DNA from: Paracoccus yibinensis | Lineage (GTDB): Bacteria; Pseudomonadota; Alphaproteobacteria; Rhodobacterales; Rhodobacteraceae | Assembly: GCF_030846195.1 (NCBI RefSeq) | Contig: NZ_JAVCWH010000004.1 | Coordinates: forward strand, 62,001 to 126,000 | Direction: 5' to 3' | DNA: 64,000 nucleotides | In this document: in pieces, positions 18,315 to 22,999 of the stretch | Position numbering within the stretch: position 1 is the stretch's first letter | How the letters are laid out: the number at the start of each line of letters is the position of its first letter | Translations under genes and position numbers: made by a program | The notes under the pieces: model-generated | What the model saw: only the letters and a program-made list of their open reading frames with translations | What the model was told of the DNA's origin: nothing | Databases searched by the model: none

Positions 18315-18947
18315 TCAGCGCACCTTTTCCATCAGCACGCTTGGCCGTGTGCAATCTCTTTGCACGTCGGGGGCGCAGTCGCGCGGTTGCAGGTTCCGGG
18401 TCAGGCAGATGCGGACCTCGGCCAGGATTTCGGCCTTGCAGGTGACGGTGACACCATCGGGCGTCAGGCGAGGATTGGCTTCCAGAAAGGCTTCCTCGAC
18501 CACCGCCGGGGGCAGGGTGATGTCACGGGGCAGGCCGTCGAAGGGGCGGGGGATTTCGACCCTTTCGGCGGCCTCTCGCAGGGTGGCAAGATATTCCGCC
18601 GCCGACAGTCCCGAACAGCGGCCATGTTTCCGCCACTGGTAAAGGGCCAGCCCTGGCGCCATCAGGTCGCCCATGGCCTGCACCTCGCGCCGCGACGGGT
18701 CGCGTTCCGGGGTGTCGCAGTATTCCGGCCATCCTTGTTCATGTTGCGGCCAAAGCCCGTGAACCGTGAAGTCCAGGCCGCTGCCCCGGCCGCATTCCGT
18801 GGCATCGCGTCCGTCGCCCGTGTCCCGGCACCAGCTTGGCTGCCAACTGAGCGCGAGGACATAATAATCGAAATCGCCCGCCCCATCGGCGGTGGCGGGG
18901 ACCGGCCACAGGGCCAGAGCAAGCGGGATCAGGAACGCGGCTTTCAT
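18315..18947 (-). CDS. Ribonuclease T2 family protein (exported)
   Basis: A 210-residue secreted or periplasmic endoribonuclease. MKAAFLIPLALALWPVPATA is a Sec signal peptide. Active-site box I is FTVHGLWPQ and box II is YQWRKHGRCSG; box II has Gln where many eukaryotic members have Glu, which the family pattern allows. Eight cysteines could form the usual disulfides. ATG 18945-18947 is used; the frame stays open far upstream, but only across trcR in antisense. It is divergent from trcR and carries repeat copy 2 after its stop. Confidence 0.9.
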   Translation of the reverse strand: MKAAFLIPLALALWPVPATADGAGDFDYYVLALSWQPSWCRDTGDGRDATECGRGSGLDFTVHGLWPQHEQGWPEYCDTPERDPSRREVQAMGDLMAPGLALYQWRKHGRCSGLSAAEYLATLREAAERVEIPRPFDGLPRDITLPPAVVEEAFLEANPRLTPDGVTVTCKAEILAEVRICLTRNLQPRDCAPDVQRDCTRPSVLMEKVR

Positions 18948-19001
18948 GGCGCCACCATGACCTGCGCAAGGCCGGGCGTCCATCGGGCGGCGCGAATCCT
19001 C

Positions 19002-19030
19002 TTTTCCCCGCGCGCCGAAATCGCTATATG
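19002..19030 (+). promoter_or_regulatory. Possible trcR promoter
   Basis: TATATG at 19025-19030 is a good -10 box (4/6); TTTTCC at 19002-19007 is a weak -35 at 17-base spacing. This leaves a leader of about 95 bases before trcR. Confidence 0.3.
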
Positions 19031-19130
19031 ACCCGACAATTCCCCCCGAAAACGAGGAATGGCACCCGCCAAAAGCCGTTTTTCCGGCCTGAAACCTGCT
19101 GTTCGGGGCAGACACGCGAAGGAGATGGAC

Positions 19131-19877
19131 ATGAGCAAGCCTTTGATGGCCAAGGCGACCGCCGTCTGGCTGGTGGACAATACCACGCTGAGCTTCAAGC
19201 AGATCGGCGATTTCTGCGGATTGCACGAACTGGAAGTGCAGGGCATCGCCGACGGCGACGTGGCGGCAGGCGTCAAGGGCTATGACCCGGTCGCGTCGCA
19301 CCAGCTTGACCCCGAGGAAATCCGCAAGGGCGAGGCCAGCCCCACCTACAAGCTGCGCCTGAAGCACAACCCCGCCGCCGAGGGCGAGGAAAAGCGCCGC
19401 GGGCCGCGTTATACGCCGCTGTCCAAGCGCCAGGACCGTCCGAACGCGATCCTGTGGCTGGTCAAGTTCCATCCCGAACTGCCGGACGCGGCCATCGCCA
19501 AGCTGGTGGGGACGACGAAGCCCACGATCGCGTCGATCCGGGAACGGACCCACTGGAACATCCAGAACATGCAGCCGATCGACCCGGTCGCCCTGGGCCT
19601 GTGCCGCCAGACCGAACTGGACGCCGCCGTTCAGAAGGCGGCCAAGAAGGCCGCTGCCACCGGCGAGGTGATGAGCGACGACGAACGCCGCAAGCTGGTC
19701 AGCACCGAGACCTCGCTGTCGATGAGCGACGAGCCGCGCCTGCCGTCCTCGATCGCGGGGCTTGAGAATTTCTCGCTGACGCGGGACGAGGACAAGGCGC
19801 CCGAACGCGATCTGGACGCCGACAGCTTCTTCAACCTGCCCGACGCGGATGAGGATGAGGACGACGAGGGTCGCTGA
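19131..19877 (+). CDS. trcR: Cell cycle transcriptional regulator TrcR (DUF1013)
   Basis: A 248-residue DUF1013 protein. In Caulobacter TrcR associates with RNA polymerase and is cell-cycle controlled. Seen: an N-terminal helix-turn-helix-like region (TAVWLVDNTTLSFKQIGDFC, EVQGIADGDV), a central second repeat (NAILWLVKFHPELPDAAIAK, THWNIQNMQPIDPVALGLC) and an acidic low-complexity tail DADEDEDDEGR. The two halves look like an internal duplication of one helix-turn-helix unit. GAAGGAG sits 6 bases before ATG 19131; ATG 19125 is possible. A strong terminator follows. Confidence 0.9.
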   Translation: MSKPLMAKATAVWLVDNTTLSFKQIGDFCGLHELEVQGIADGDVAAGVKGYDPVASHQLDPEEIRKGEASPTYKLRLKHNPAAEGEEKRRGPRYTPLSKRQDRPNAILWLVKFHPELPDAAIAKLVGTTKPTIASIRERTHWNIQNMQPIDPVALGLCRQTELDAAVQKAAKKAAATGEVMSDDERRKLVSTETSLSMSDEPRLPSSIAGLENFSLTRDEDKAPERDLDADSFFNLPDADEDEDDEGR

Positions 19878-19899
19878 TCCTTGCCCATGAAGACCATGA

Positions 19900-19935
19900 A
19901 AAAGGGCCGGTGCGTCGATGCGCACCGGCCCTTTT
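19900..19935. terminator. Bidirectional intrinsic terminator between trcR and glsB
   Basis: Perfect 15-bp stem: AAAAGGGCCGGTGCG (19900-19914) with its complement at 19921-19935 and a 6-base loop. A-runs and T-runs on both sides give a U tail on either strand, serving trcR (plus) and the stress membrane protein (minus). Confidence 0.9.
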
Positions 19936-19950
19936 CCGTTCAGGCGGGGA

Positions 19951-20208
19951 TCAGGCCCGGCCGCGCACCAGGCGGACCAGCCAGATCAGGATGCAGGCGC
20001 CGATCACGGCCACGATCAGCTGGCCGATGATGCTGCCCCCTGCGCTGCTGCCAATCAGCGCGTCGAAGATGAAGTTACCGATCAGCGCGCCGACGATGCC
20101 GACGACGATGTTCATCAGCAGCCCGGTATCGGTTTTCATGATCTTTTCGGCGATCCACCCTGCGATTGCGCCCAGGATGATCGACATAATCCAGCCAAAA
20201 CCTTCCAT
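19951..20208 (-). CDS. GlsB/YeaQ/YmgE-family membrane protein
   Basis: An 85-residue three-helix inner-membrane protein of the transglycosylase-associated (DUF) family, often induced by stress. It has the Gly-rich pattern SIILGAIAGWIAEKIM, MNIVVGIVGALIGNFIF and IGQLIVAVIGACILIWLVR. Its biochemical role is unknown. AAGGGGAAG precedes the start. Single gene with a shared terminator. Confidence 0.85.
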   Translation of the reverse strand: MEGFGWIMSIILGAIAGWIAEKIMKTDTGLLMNIVVGIVGALIGNFIFDALIGSSAGGSIIGQLIVAVIGACILIWLVRLVRGRA

Positions 20209-20319: not shown

Positions 20320-21792
20320 TCAGATCGACAGGCAGATGTATTTCAACTCCAGATAATCCTCGATGCCGTGGCGACTGCCCTCGCGGCCCAGGCCCGACTG
20401 CTTGACGCCGCCGAAGGGCGCCACCTCGGTCGAGATGATCCCGGTGTTCACGCCGACGATGCCGTATTCCAGCGCCTCCTGCACGCGGGTGATGCGACCG
20501 ATGTCGCGGGCGTAGAAATAGGACGCCAGGCCGAAGATCGTGTCGTTGGCCTTTTGGACGACCTCCTCCTCGGTCTCGAACTTGAACAGGGGCGCCAGGG
20601 GGCCGAAGGTTTCCTCGGTCGCGACCTTCATGCGGTCGGTGACGCCGGTGACGACGGTGGGCTTGAAGAACAGCCCCTCCATCCGCTCGCCGCCCGTGAC
20701 GATTTGCCCACCGCCGTCCAGCACGTCGCGGATATGTTCCTCGACCTTCTCGACCGCATCCTCGTTGATCAGGGGGCCGGTGGTCACGCCGTCTTCCAGC
20801 CCGTCGCCCACGCGCAGCTTGTCCACAGCCGCCGCCAGCTTTTGCGCGAAAGCGTCATAAACACCGGCCTGGACATAGATCCGGTTCGCGCAGACGCAGG
20901 TCTGGCCGTTGTTGCGGAACTTCGACGCCATCGCGCCCTCGACCGCGGCGTCCAGGTCGGCGTCGTCGAAGACGATGAAGGGCGCGTTGCCGCCCAGTTC
21001 CATGCTGCACTTCATCACTTGGTCGGCGGCCTGGCGCAAAAGGATCCGCCCTACCTCGGTCGAGCCGGTGAAGGTCAGCTTGCGCACCAGCGGGTTTTCG
21101 CAGAACTCCTTGCCGATGTCGCTGGACCGTGACGAGGTGACGACCGACAGGATGCCCTTGGGCAGGCCCGCGCGTTCGCCCAGCACCGCCATGGCCAGGG
21201 CGGACAGCGGGGTTTCCGCCGCCGGGCGGGCCACGAAGCCGCAGCCCACGGCCAGGGCAGGGGCGACCTTGCGCGCGATCATGGCGTTGGGGAAGTTCCA
21301 CGGCGTAATGGACCCCACCACGCCGATGGGTTGGCGCAGCACGGTCAGGCGCTTGTCGGGCATGTGGCCGGGGATGGTTTCGCCATAGACGCGCTTGGCT
21401 TCCTCGCCGAACCATTCGACGAAGCTGGCGCCATAGGCGATCTCGCCCTTGGCCTCGGGGAAGGGCTTTCCCATCTCGGCGGTCAGGATGCGGGCCAGGT
21501 CGTCCTGGTTCTGCATCATCAGGTCGAACCACTTGCGCATCACCCCTGCGCGGTCCTTGGCGGTGCGGGCGGCCCAGCCCTTCATCGCTTCGGCCGCGGC
21601 CTCGATGGCGCGGGCGGCGTCCTGGCGGTCCATGTCGGCGACCCTTGCGATCACGTCGCCGCGGGCCGGGTTCGTCACGTCGAAGGTGGCGCCGTCCCGC
21701 GCCTCGACCCATTCGCCGGCGACAAAGGCGCGGGTTTCCAGCAGCGAGGGATCGCGCAGCAGGGTTTTCAGATCGGTTGAATGCTTGGTCAT
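20320..21792 (-). CDS. gabD: Succinate-semialdehyde dehydrogenase (NAD(P)+)
   Basis: Oxidises succinate semialdehyde to succinate, usually in GABA breakdown; 490 residues. Motifs: ITPWNFPNAMIARK, FTGSTEVGR, MELGGNAPF with Glu265, and NNGQTCVCANR with the nucleophile Cys299, giving the tandem CVC of GabD proteins. The cofactor-binding KPA motif of most members reads ARPA here (Arg189). ATG 21790-21792 has GGAG at 7 bases; the open frame extends further upstream without family similarity. No GABA transaminase is adjacent. Confidence 0.9.
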   Translation of the reverse strand: MTKHSTDLKTLLRDPSLLETRAFVAGEWVEARDGATFDVTNPARGDVIARVADMDRQDAARAIEAAAEAMKGWAARTAKDRAGVMRKWFDLMMQNQDDLARILTAEMGKPFPEAKGEIAYGASFVEWFGEEAKRVYGETIPGHMPDKRLTVLRQPIGVVGSITPWNFPNAMIARKVAPALAVGCGFVARPAAETPLSALAMAVLGERAGLPKGILSVVTSSRSSDIGKEFCENPLVRKLTFTGSTEVGRILLRQAADQVMKCSMELGGNAPFIVFDDADLDAAVEGAMASKFRNNGQTCVCANRIYVQAGVYDAFAQKLAAAVDKLRVGDGLEDGVTTGPLINEDAVEKVEEHIRDVLDGGGQIVTGGERMEGLFFKPTVVTGVTDRMKVATEETFGPLAPLFKFETEEEVVQKANDTIFGLASYFYARDIGRITRVQEALEYGIVGVNTGIISTEVAPFGGVKQSGLGREGSRHGIEDYLELKYICLSI

Positions 21793-21924
21793 GGCTGGCT
21801 CCGTATCGGTCAGGCCAAGATCAGCACGCGGGCCGAGGGATGTCAAAGCGGCGACGATGCCATGCGCGGCATCGGAAAAAAGTCGCGCCCTGCGTGAAAC
21901 CCGTGAACCAAATGCGCGCAGCGG

Positions 21925-22010
21925 CGTTGGACCGGTATCGCTAAGCCTTCCCTCTTGGCGACCCTCTCTCTGATCTGGGGCGGTGCGCCGGTCGCGCGCC
22001 GCCCCTTTTT
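21925..22010 (+). ncRNA. Candidate small RNA ending at a strong terminator
   Basis: In the 217-base gap between gabD and the P1 peptidase gene (both minus strand), the plus strand carries a classical intrinsic terminator: GGGGCGG and CCGCCCC arms (21977-21983, 22000-22005 region) extended inward by GCGC pairs with one T-G wobble, followed by TTTTT at 22005-22009. No plus-strand coding gene ends here. The preceding 50 bases contain pyrimidine-rich single-stranded stretches (CTTCCCTCTTGG, CCCTCTCTCTG). I found no convincing promoter, so the 5' end is a guess. Confidence 0.3.
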
Positions 22011-22999
22011 CATGCCTGAAGACTGCTCCAGCAGGGTTGCAGGTCGCCGGGCGCAGGGCTGGCGGCATGGACGCCGCGGGCTATGGCACGGGCCAGGCAG
22101 GATGCCGCGGCGTGCCCCAGCAGGAAGGGATCGGCAACGGGATCGGCCAGTGGCTTGGCGCCGGTCGAGACGGCAAAGACCAGGTCCCCGTCGAATGGTG
22201 TGTGGCTGGGCACCAGGGCGCGGGACATGCCGTCATGGGCGGCGACGGCCATGCGTTGCAGCGCCGGTTTGTCCAGGGCTGCGTTGGTGGCGACGATGGC
22301 GATGGTCGTGGCCTCGCCCAACCGCTTGGCGGGCGCGGGTTCATGGGTGGCGGGGAAGCTGGCGGGCAGGCCAAGGCCACCGAACTCGGCCCCCAGTTCC
22401 CAGGGGGCGGCCCAGAACTGCTGCGTCTTGCCCACCGTCGCCTGCCCAAGCGCATTGACCGCGACCAAGGCACCGACCGTCAGCCCGTTCTCCAGCACCG
22501 CTGACGCCGAGCCGAGCCCGCCTTTCAGAGTCCCCGTCATGGCCCCGGTCCCCGCGCCCGCCGTGCCCAGGGCAAAATCGGCGGCGGCGGCATCGAAGGC
22601 CGCGCGCCCAAGCGCCGGATAGGGGTTGTCGGACCACCCCTTGTCCCCGCCGTTCAGCAGGTCGAAGACGATCGCCCCCGGCACGATCGGCACCCGCACG
22701 GGGCCTACGGGAAAGCCCCGCCCCATCGCGCGCAGGCCCGCCATCACCCCGTCGCAGGCCGCAAGGCCAAAGGCCGACCCGCCCGACAGCACCAGCCCAT
22801 CGACGCAGGCCACCAGCTTGTCAGGGGCCAGCAGATCGGTTTCCCGCGTGCCGGGCGCGCCGCCCATGACATGAACCGCCGCCGCGAAGGGCGCGTCCGC
22901 CGTCAGCACCGTGACACCCGATTTCAGATGCGGGTCGGCGGCGTTCCCGACCCGCAGGCCAGGGATGTCGGTGATCCGGTTCCGGGTCCCCGGTTTCAT
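22010..22999 (-). CDS. P1-family peptidase (DmpA/BapA type, family S58)
   Basis: A 329-residue Ntn-type self-processing aminopeptidase. Seen: ITDIPGLRVGNA at the start, GLVLSGGSAFGL, GAMTGTLKGGLGSAS, and TTIAIVATNAAL near residue 231, where the nucleophile Thr becomes N-terminal after autocleavage in this family. Members release N-terminal residues from peptides, amides or beta-peptides; the substrate here is unknown. There is no signal peptide, so it is probably cytosolic. It starts 3 bases after the stop of the K+ channel gene and is likely translated from the same mRNA. Confidence 0.85.
   Translation of the reverse strand: MKPGTRNRITDIPGLRVGNAADPHLKSGVTVLTADAPFAAAVHVMGGAPGTRETDLLAPDKLVACVDGLVLSGGSAFGLAACDGVMAGLRAMGRGFPVGPVRVPIVPGAIVFDLLNGGDKGWSDNPYPALGRAAFDAAAADFALGTAGAGTGAMTGTLKGGLGSASAVLENGLTVGALVAVNALGQATVGKTQQFWAAPWELGAEFGGLGLPASFPATHEPAPAKRLGEATTIAIVATNAALDKPALQRMAVAAHDGMSRALVPSHTPFDGDLVFAVSTGAKPLADPVADPFLLGHAAASCLARAIARGVHAASPAPGDLQPCWSSLQA

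Follow-up and report, generated by a model that had tools for sequence, protein, structure and literature searches.

The question raised by this locus is what a strong terminator on the plus strand could be ending when both of the genes around it are read from the minus strand. The window, a stretch of 64,000 nucleotides from Paracoccus yibinensis, carries a gabD-like aldehyde dehydrogenase gene (20320-21792, minus strand, PF00171), which is the syntenic neighbour of the element, and a gene for an S58 peptidase of the P1/DmpA type (22010-22999, minus strand, PF03576), which is convergent with the RNA described below. Between them lies an intrinsic terminator at 21977-22010 of the plus strand, with its stem at 21977-22005 and five T at 22006-22010. 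A preliminary description of this DNA had pointed to the hairpin, its five Ts and the minus-strand orientation of both flanking genes, all of which we find as it had them, except that it let the terminator end at 22009, one base short of the true end at 22010. Its proposal of an unannotated small RNA has gained support from the compensated changes with which the element is conserved and from a promoter-like motif at a fixed place, and we now consider a real, conserved sRNA gene very likely. As a whole explanation we favor, with good though not high confidence, a stand-alone stress sRNA gene of Paracoccus that would be driven by EcfG, directed at a porin and descended from the 3' end of an SH3-DUF1236 gene. 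What this adds to the preliminary description, namely a 5' hairpin, an ECF-type promoter and an origin in the 3' end of a gene since lost, is predicted from sequence.

The terminator stem has 12 pairs, 11 of them G-C, around a loop of 5, and its 34 nt fold with -28.7 kcal/mol (z -5.26), which none of 200 shuffles equals. Terminator-like sites as such are not rare (3 were found in 4 kb against 2.5 expected), and the other two in these 4 kb have stems of 7 pairs. On the minus strand AGATCAGAG follows the hairpin and there is no T-run, which is why we take it for a plus-strand terminator, and RNA polymerase would then stop at the T-run, at 22010. The stop codon of the peptidase gene shares the last T of this run, and the RNA and the peptidase ORF overlap by that one base. 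The predicted RNA would be about 76 nt long (21935-22010, plus strand), its 5' end being placed from the -10 element to within 2 nt on either side. It is matched by the covariance model described below and folds as a whole with -38.1 kcal/mol (z -5.38). At its start is a 5' hairpin (21937-21962, pairing 21938-21945 with 21954-21961) that carries CCUUCCCU in its loop, where UUCCCUC is unpaired, and a CU-rich linker of 15 nt connects it with the terminator. The pyrimidine-rich runs that the preliminary description saw before the terminator are CCUUCCCUCUU and CCCUCUCUCU.

At its curated cut-offs Rfam has a single match in the window, a tRNA elsewhere. The best match to the element was RF00519 (suhB/MmgR; E 0.0031 in 301 bases), which resembles it in having a hairpin, a CU-rich linker and a terminator. 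We rejected this identity at 24.9 bits against a curated cut-off of 41, and the model is unspecific here, with none of 61 genomes of the genus reaching the cut-off. Nearby in the window are a minus-strand gene for a small membrane protein of the transglycosylase-associated family (19951-20208, PF04226), which we take to be of the GlsB/YeaQ/YmgE stress kind, and a minus-strand ORF at 18315-19925 whose C-terminal residues 352-517 are a ribonuclease T2 domain (PF00445). A strong GC hairpin with a T-run (19878-19940, plus strand) follows a gene that ends at 19877. This terminator gave the covariance model a second weak match in the window (19875-19937, E 0.0038), which was rejected as it comes from the terminator alone.

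Conservation of the element in Paracoccus

The covariance model (R1) was built from 33 sequences, 15 of them found by BLAST and 18 by a pattern search (13 titled Paracoccus and 5 for which no title was given). BLAST, with 61 genomes, gave the 15 homologues beside gabD plus weaker matches. The pattern search in named genomes gave at least 117 stretches, 80 of them with titles, and matches whose following letters did not resemble this linker and terminator were set aside by eye rather than by individual tests. The search pattern fixed both the loop and the 3' arm, so that their invariance is partly by construction. In 106 of 125 Paracoccus genomes R1 has a match at E<=0.01; we took the best 89 of these 106 (E<=3.3e-5), of which 88 are real and one (G118) is a chance match. 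A wider search in the family, covering 294 additional genomes (293 of other genera and one more Paracoccus), gave three matches (E<=1e-4), which were judged to be chance because gabD, the peptidase and DUF1236 are all absent nearby. This family search gave no convincing match outside Paracoccus. The sRNA family appears to be new and genus-wide in Paracoccus, and the covariance model can be used to annotate the element there.

The 88 elements have gabD beside them in 86 cases and the peptidase within 1.3 kb in 71, with both in 70. One alternative is a leader or antisense RNA acting in cis on a neighbor, for example on the convergent peptidase mRNA, since the end of the RNA meets the peptidase stop codon and so could meet the peptidase transcript. 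We hold this to be highly improbable, as the overlap with the peptidase ORF in the window is only one base and the conserved loop faces no neighboring gene. Moreover, the element is present in the 17 of the 88 loci where the peptidase is not found within 1.3 kb downstream, as well as in G141, where it lies about 500 nt further off.

In 85 distinct rows aligned with MAFFT, 96.2% of the cells of the two helices are paired against 90.1% in shuffled rows, figures that lean towards pairing because the aligned rows were found by a structure model, with 15 loci coming from BLAST alone. Cells that are changed on both sides number 93, compared to 16.2 when shuffled and 1 to 19 with slid partners. Within helix 1, three pairs show changes on both sides, such as GC to AU and CG to UA in G125, G132 and G103, and the outermost pair that was counted does not form in 21 of the 85 rows. 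The preliminary description had staked its small RNA on conservation of the hairpin, which is indeed kept across much of Paracoccus with compensated changes.

Promoter and origin of the RNA gene

In 22 of the 88 loci a plus-strand gene with SH3 and DUF1236 domains (PF08239, PF06823) lies upstream of the element. The protein of these hosts ends in ...YIYR* or a close form, the 5' arm of the hairpin consists of the last codons and the stop (TAT CGC TAA or TGA), and the element shares the terminator of the mRNA. The remaining 66 loci have no SH3-DUF1236 gene upstream, and the window, itself without a host ORF, is one of these orphans. TCCCTC is found inside the element in all 66 orphans and in 19 of the 22 hosts. 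A protein search of the 125 genomes provided 28 further SH3-DUF1236 copies. Seventeen are beside gabD and have a diverged 3' end, with TCCCTC within 85 nt of the last codon in 9; all of them adjoin the peptidase as well except for the one in G061, where it is missing from the stretch covered. The other 11 lie away from the locus and end in similar codons, none of them with TCCCTC. The 125 genomes can then be classed as 22 hosts, 17 diverged hosts, 66 orphans, one with a diverged orphan element (G034), nine with gabD near the peptidase and neither the gene nor TCCCTC within 500 nt, four with gabD and no peptidase nearby, and six left unclassed. The element is therefore not essential, given the nine genomes that lack it, some of which are incomplete assemblies (G031, G035, G137).

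The relocated copies (L317-L320, L322, L323, L325, L326, L332, L334 and L335) keep a promoter of the GGAAC type 39-50 nt upstream of the ATG, and in these 11 loci it is the protein gene that has moved and not the RNA. In two further loci (L278 in G008 and L384 in G034) the SH3-DUF1236 gene is downstream, not upstream, of an orphan-type element, and in G008 the 46 nt seen after this gene contain no TCCCTC.

The consensus site of EcfG is GGAAC-N16/17-CGTT, and GGAAC-N16/17-NGTT was found upstream of nepR in all 20 regions looked at. NepR itself is present in 123 of the 125 genomes. In the genome of the window (G000), the genes for PhyR (NF006623), NepR and an ECF sigma factor (PF04542, PF08281) are direct neighbors, and it is from this place that we take the sigma factor to be EcfG, as no model names EcfG. 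We scanned the 110 nt upstream of every orphan hairpin with a profile built from the 18 distinct nepR promoters. In 65 of the 66 orphans the best match stops shortly ahead of the stem, at a distance of 7 nt in 17 loci, 8 nt in 35 and 9 nt in 13, and G111 is the only one without the motif. The -10 element is CGTT in 63 of these 65, and the -35 element has one mismatch to GGAAC in all 65 (37 TGAAC, 11 GCAAC, 9 GAAAC and 8 others). In the window the best match consists of TGAAC at 21904-21908 and CGTT at 21925-21928 of the plus strand, the former one base off the GGAAC of the nepR promoters and the latter 16 nt after it and 8 nt before the first base of the stem. Of an EcfG-type site the orphans thus have the CGTT and the spacing, with a -35 that is one base off in 65 of 66. 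The weight of this evidence lies in the fixed place of the motif, because single shuffles per locus give p-values of only 0.01-0.2 for the 65, and related sequences are not independent. No sigma-70 promoter was found upstream of the element.

For 19 of the 22 strong host genes the best upstream match is found 29-54 nt from the ATG, with an exact GGAAC in 14. Inside the host gene, the last codons (GTG AAC CCG ... ATC GTT TAC ATC TAT CGC TAA) contain TGAAC-N17-CGTT at a distance of 7 nt from the stem in 11 of the 22; the motif is shifted by one base in 5 and absent in 6. The letters of this internal motif are found in one of the 17 divergent hosts (G013) and in none of the 11 relocated copies.

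We think it rather likely, on these motifs, that the sRNA is under control of the ECF/EcfG type. An ECF sigma factor, most likely EcfG released by PhyR/NepR, would then start transcription at about 21935. A possible complication is that the best-matching -35 element is never GGAAC in the 66 orphans, compared to GGAAC before nepR in 20 of 20, and so another ECF factor may be involved. We give an ECF or stress sigma factor other than EcfG a small chance only, given that the -10 element, the spacing of 16 or 17 and the position all fit the profile derived from nepR and that the host gene itself has GGAAC in 14 of the 22 strong loci.

The direction of change can be read from a tree of the gabD proteins (109 rows, 17 of them partial) rooted on six sequences from other genera, in which only hosts stand on the earliest branches, which are themselves not resolved. 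On this tree the state has to switch between host and orphan 14 times, with at least 6 of the switches forced by well-supported branches, and the 92 full-length rows require 11, 6 of them forced. These counts come from a one-gene tree, and exchange of the locus between species could lower them. With the full-length rows, a single clade for all 65 orphans is rejected (303 log units worse, p-AU 7e-44), and G086, G030 and the pair G113/G131 are orphans that are sister to hosts (support 94, 97 and 91). Some orphans have also kept coding letters, at up to 17 of 24 non-motif positions. The promoter stretch matches host codons outside the motif in G023, G030, G111 and G086 (p<=0.01 each), and such remnants are found at p<=0.05 in 9 of 66 orphans, where 3.3 are expected. 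In G086 the orphan can be aligned with roughly the last 60 coding bases of a host. Given the rooted gabD tree and the coding remnants in the orphans, repeated loss of the ORF with retention of the RNA is the probable course of events. For the window itself this descent rests on its relatives, because its promoter stretch has no recognizable coding letters (p 0.66).

One might instead suppose that the RNA came first and that the SH3-DUF1236 gene was inserted beside it later in some species. DUF1236 genes do move, as 11 of the 28 additional copies stand outside this locus, and of 23 DUF1236 loci compared, the 22 that are not from Paracoccus (the other one is G068) show neither gabD nor the peptidase within some 1.5 kb. 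This order of events is nevertheless very unlikely in our opinion, since hosts form the earliest branches of the rooted tree, some orphans keep the coding letters just described, and the 11 relocated copies end in similar codons without the TCCCTC element. We regard the element as likely to be the orphan of a lost ORF in the family as a whole and, through its relatives, in the window.

It could also be that what was left after the ORF deletion is a relic, an mRNA end or 3'-UTR terminator without regulatory function. In favor of this, the element forms the 3' end of the mRNA at the 22 strong host loci and 17 further hosts have a diverged 3' end, conservation is to be expected of any intrinsic terminator, and nine genomes lack the element. 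Set against these points, the 5' hairpin and its loop are conserved with compensated changes after the loss of the ORF, the promoter-like motif is at its fixed place in 65 of 66 orphans, and the element was retained after several separate losses, which together make the relic quite unlikely. On the preferred reading of a functional RNA, the gene would descend from the 3' end of an SH3-DUF1236 gene beside gabD in an ancestor, and its body would have been lost several times independently while the RNA and its promoter stayed. We see about an even chance that the fuller version of this history is correct, in which the sRNA was born in the last codons of a stress protein gene and outlived that gene in many lineages, selection keeps the RNA and the promoter, the orphan promoter is a coding fossil, and the pairing with the porin was re-fitted by each lineage.

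Comparison with known small RNAs

Small RNAs from the 3' ends of mRNAs are common, and SorX of R. sphaeroides is also one that is matured from another host mRNA. Rarely, however, can an sRNA be observed while it becomes an independent gene. In Paracoccus, hosts with the RNA, eroding remnants and clean orphans occur side by side, so that the birth of an sRNA gene can be traced base by base. The CcsR1-4, UdsC and SorX RNAs of the related R. sphaeroides are likewise stress-related 3'-UTR sRNAs according to excerpts of PMC8625941, which have CcsR1-4 and UdsC matured by RNase E from other mRNAs (ccaF1, RSP_7527). There are also sRNAs with promoters embedded in an ORF, for which excerpts of PMC9438474 give MicX, DapZ (in dapB), MicL (in cutC) and ArgX. 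MicL, DapZ and MicX are sRNAs from an mRNA 3' end with a promoter inside the coding sequence (PMC9438474, in part), an arrangement that the Paracoccus RNA may share in the 11 strong hosts with the internal promoter-like motif, but it differs from them in that its host ORF has apparently been lost several times with the sRNA remaining, and in that the stop codon of the host lies inside the 5' stem.

The general stress response system of EcfG is described in the portions of PMC5830050 and PMC5869019 that we used, and the latter also treats GsrN of Caulobacter crescentus, a known sRNA that depends on EcfG/SigT. GsrN is alphaproteobacterial, has a promoter of the sigma-EcfG type, and has a 5' hairpin with an exposed C-rich loop that pairs with G-rich mRNA leaders (PMC5869019, same portions). 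An unpaired C-rich loop in the 5' hairpin is present here as UUCCCUC. There are also clear differences. GsrN is typically close to ecfG, nepR and phyR, with the exception of C. crescentus itself, whereas the Paracoccus element is on contig C44 and the phyR-nepR-sigma gene group on C54, at least some 80 kb apart. GsrN, which is cleaved into a stable 5' isoform, activates katG while the Paracoccus RNA is predicted to repress a porin, and the Paracoccus RNA would descend from the 3' end of an SH3-DUF1236 gene. BLAST homologues of GsrN are reported only in Caulobacteraceae in what PMC5869019 states in these portions. In the literature searched no paper on the element was found, nor any joining DUF1236 with an sRNA or GGAAC with EcfG and Paracoccus; PMC5107571, of which a part was available, lists 167 sRNAs of P. 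denitrificans, and the transcript may already stand in its full table. If our reading is right, the general stress response in this alphaproteobacterial branch would have a post-transcriptional arm, with an outer-membrane porin as candidate target.

A porin mRNA as candidate target

The RNA would expose UUCCCUCUU in the hairpin loop and UCUCUCU in the single-stranded linker, and could pair with GAGGGA-rich ribosome-binding regions, Hfq being the probable platform. Hfq is present in the genome of the window (PF17209, E 1e-32), so that of the features of an Hfq-dependent sRNA both Hfq and a terminator with a U-tail (five T) are seen. Judged from its letters, the RNA is most likely an EcfG-type repressor of the anti-Shine-Dalgarno kind, and the idea of a CU-rich RNA pairing with Shine-Dalgarno sequences, which the preliminary description had raised, gained from the complementarity of both loop and linker to the ribosome-binding region of a porin gene. 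The best candidate would be this Porin_4 mRNA, whose translation may be lowered under stress. The first predicted pairing block, UUCCCUCUUG (21948-21957, plus strand), is anti-Shine-Dalgarno-like and has its complement CAAGAGGGAA upstream of the porin ATG. The second, UCUCUCUGAU in the linker (21965-21974, plus strand), has its complement AUCAGAGAGA in the porin leader directly upstream of the site of the first. Together the two blocks are predicted to pair with 20 continuous bases of the leader at -10.6 kcal/mol after opening costs.

The loop complement AAGAGGGAA is not enriched as such in G000, where it occurs 8 times (once as the element itself) against 8 for a reversed-pattern control; in G011 it occurs 15 times against 6. 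In each of these two genomes a porin gene has one of these occurrences as its ribosome-binding region, the Pfam assignment to Porin_4 having been tested for the porin of G000 only. The same porin leader was seen in G036, in a locus fetched for another reason, and a similar two-block pairing is predicted there (-9.2). In G011, whose linker has no CU run, a longer loop is predicted to pair over 17 bases into the start codon (-11.3). The lineage-wise re-fitting considered above would accordingly have used the linker block in the clade of the window and an extended loop block reaching the start codon in that of G011.

When accessibility is taken into account, the porin ranks 2 of 346 against 345 sampled leaders (from about 0.46 Mb of G000, with our own crude gene calls), a rank that is biased because the porin was picked by its complement to the loop. 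With plain duplex energies and no opening costs, 45 of the 345 leaders are as good as the porin. Simple duplex energies were rejected for target search, as they are dominated by GC content and stem opening, and were replaced by accessibility-corrected ones. For two other porins, encoded on Paracoccus plasmids, the stretch seen does not contain the complement. On balance of the predicted pairings, the chance that the porin is a target seems to us roughly equal to the chance that it is not.

Some minor observations concern the pairing parts. The nine-base loop complement is also present at the start regions of citrate synthase-, S10- and trpA-like proteins in G011, with names given by reading of the letters and at sites that resemble ordinary Shine-Dalgarno sequences. 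One locus (L253, in G102) is a natural loop-expansion variant in which the loop has grown to UUCCCUCUCUCUUUC and the stem is kept. Five G011-like loci (L211, L219, L233, L242 and L252) have a linker without the CU run but a UCUCUC run in the loop of the terminator, which looks like a relocation of the second pairing block.
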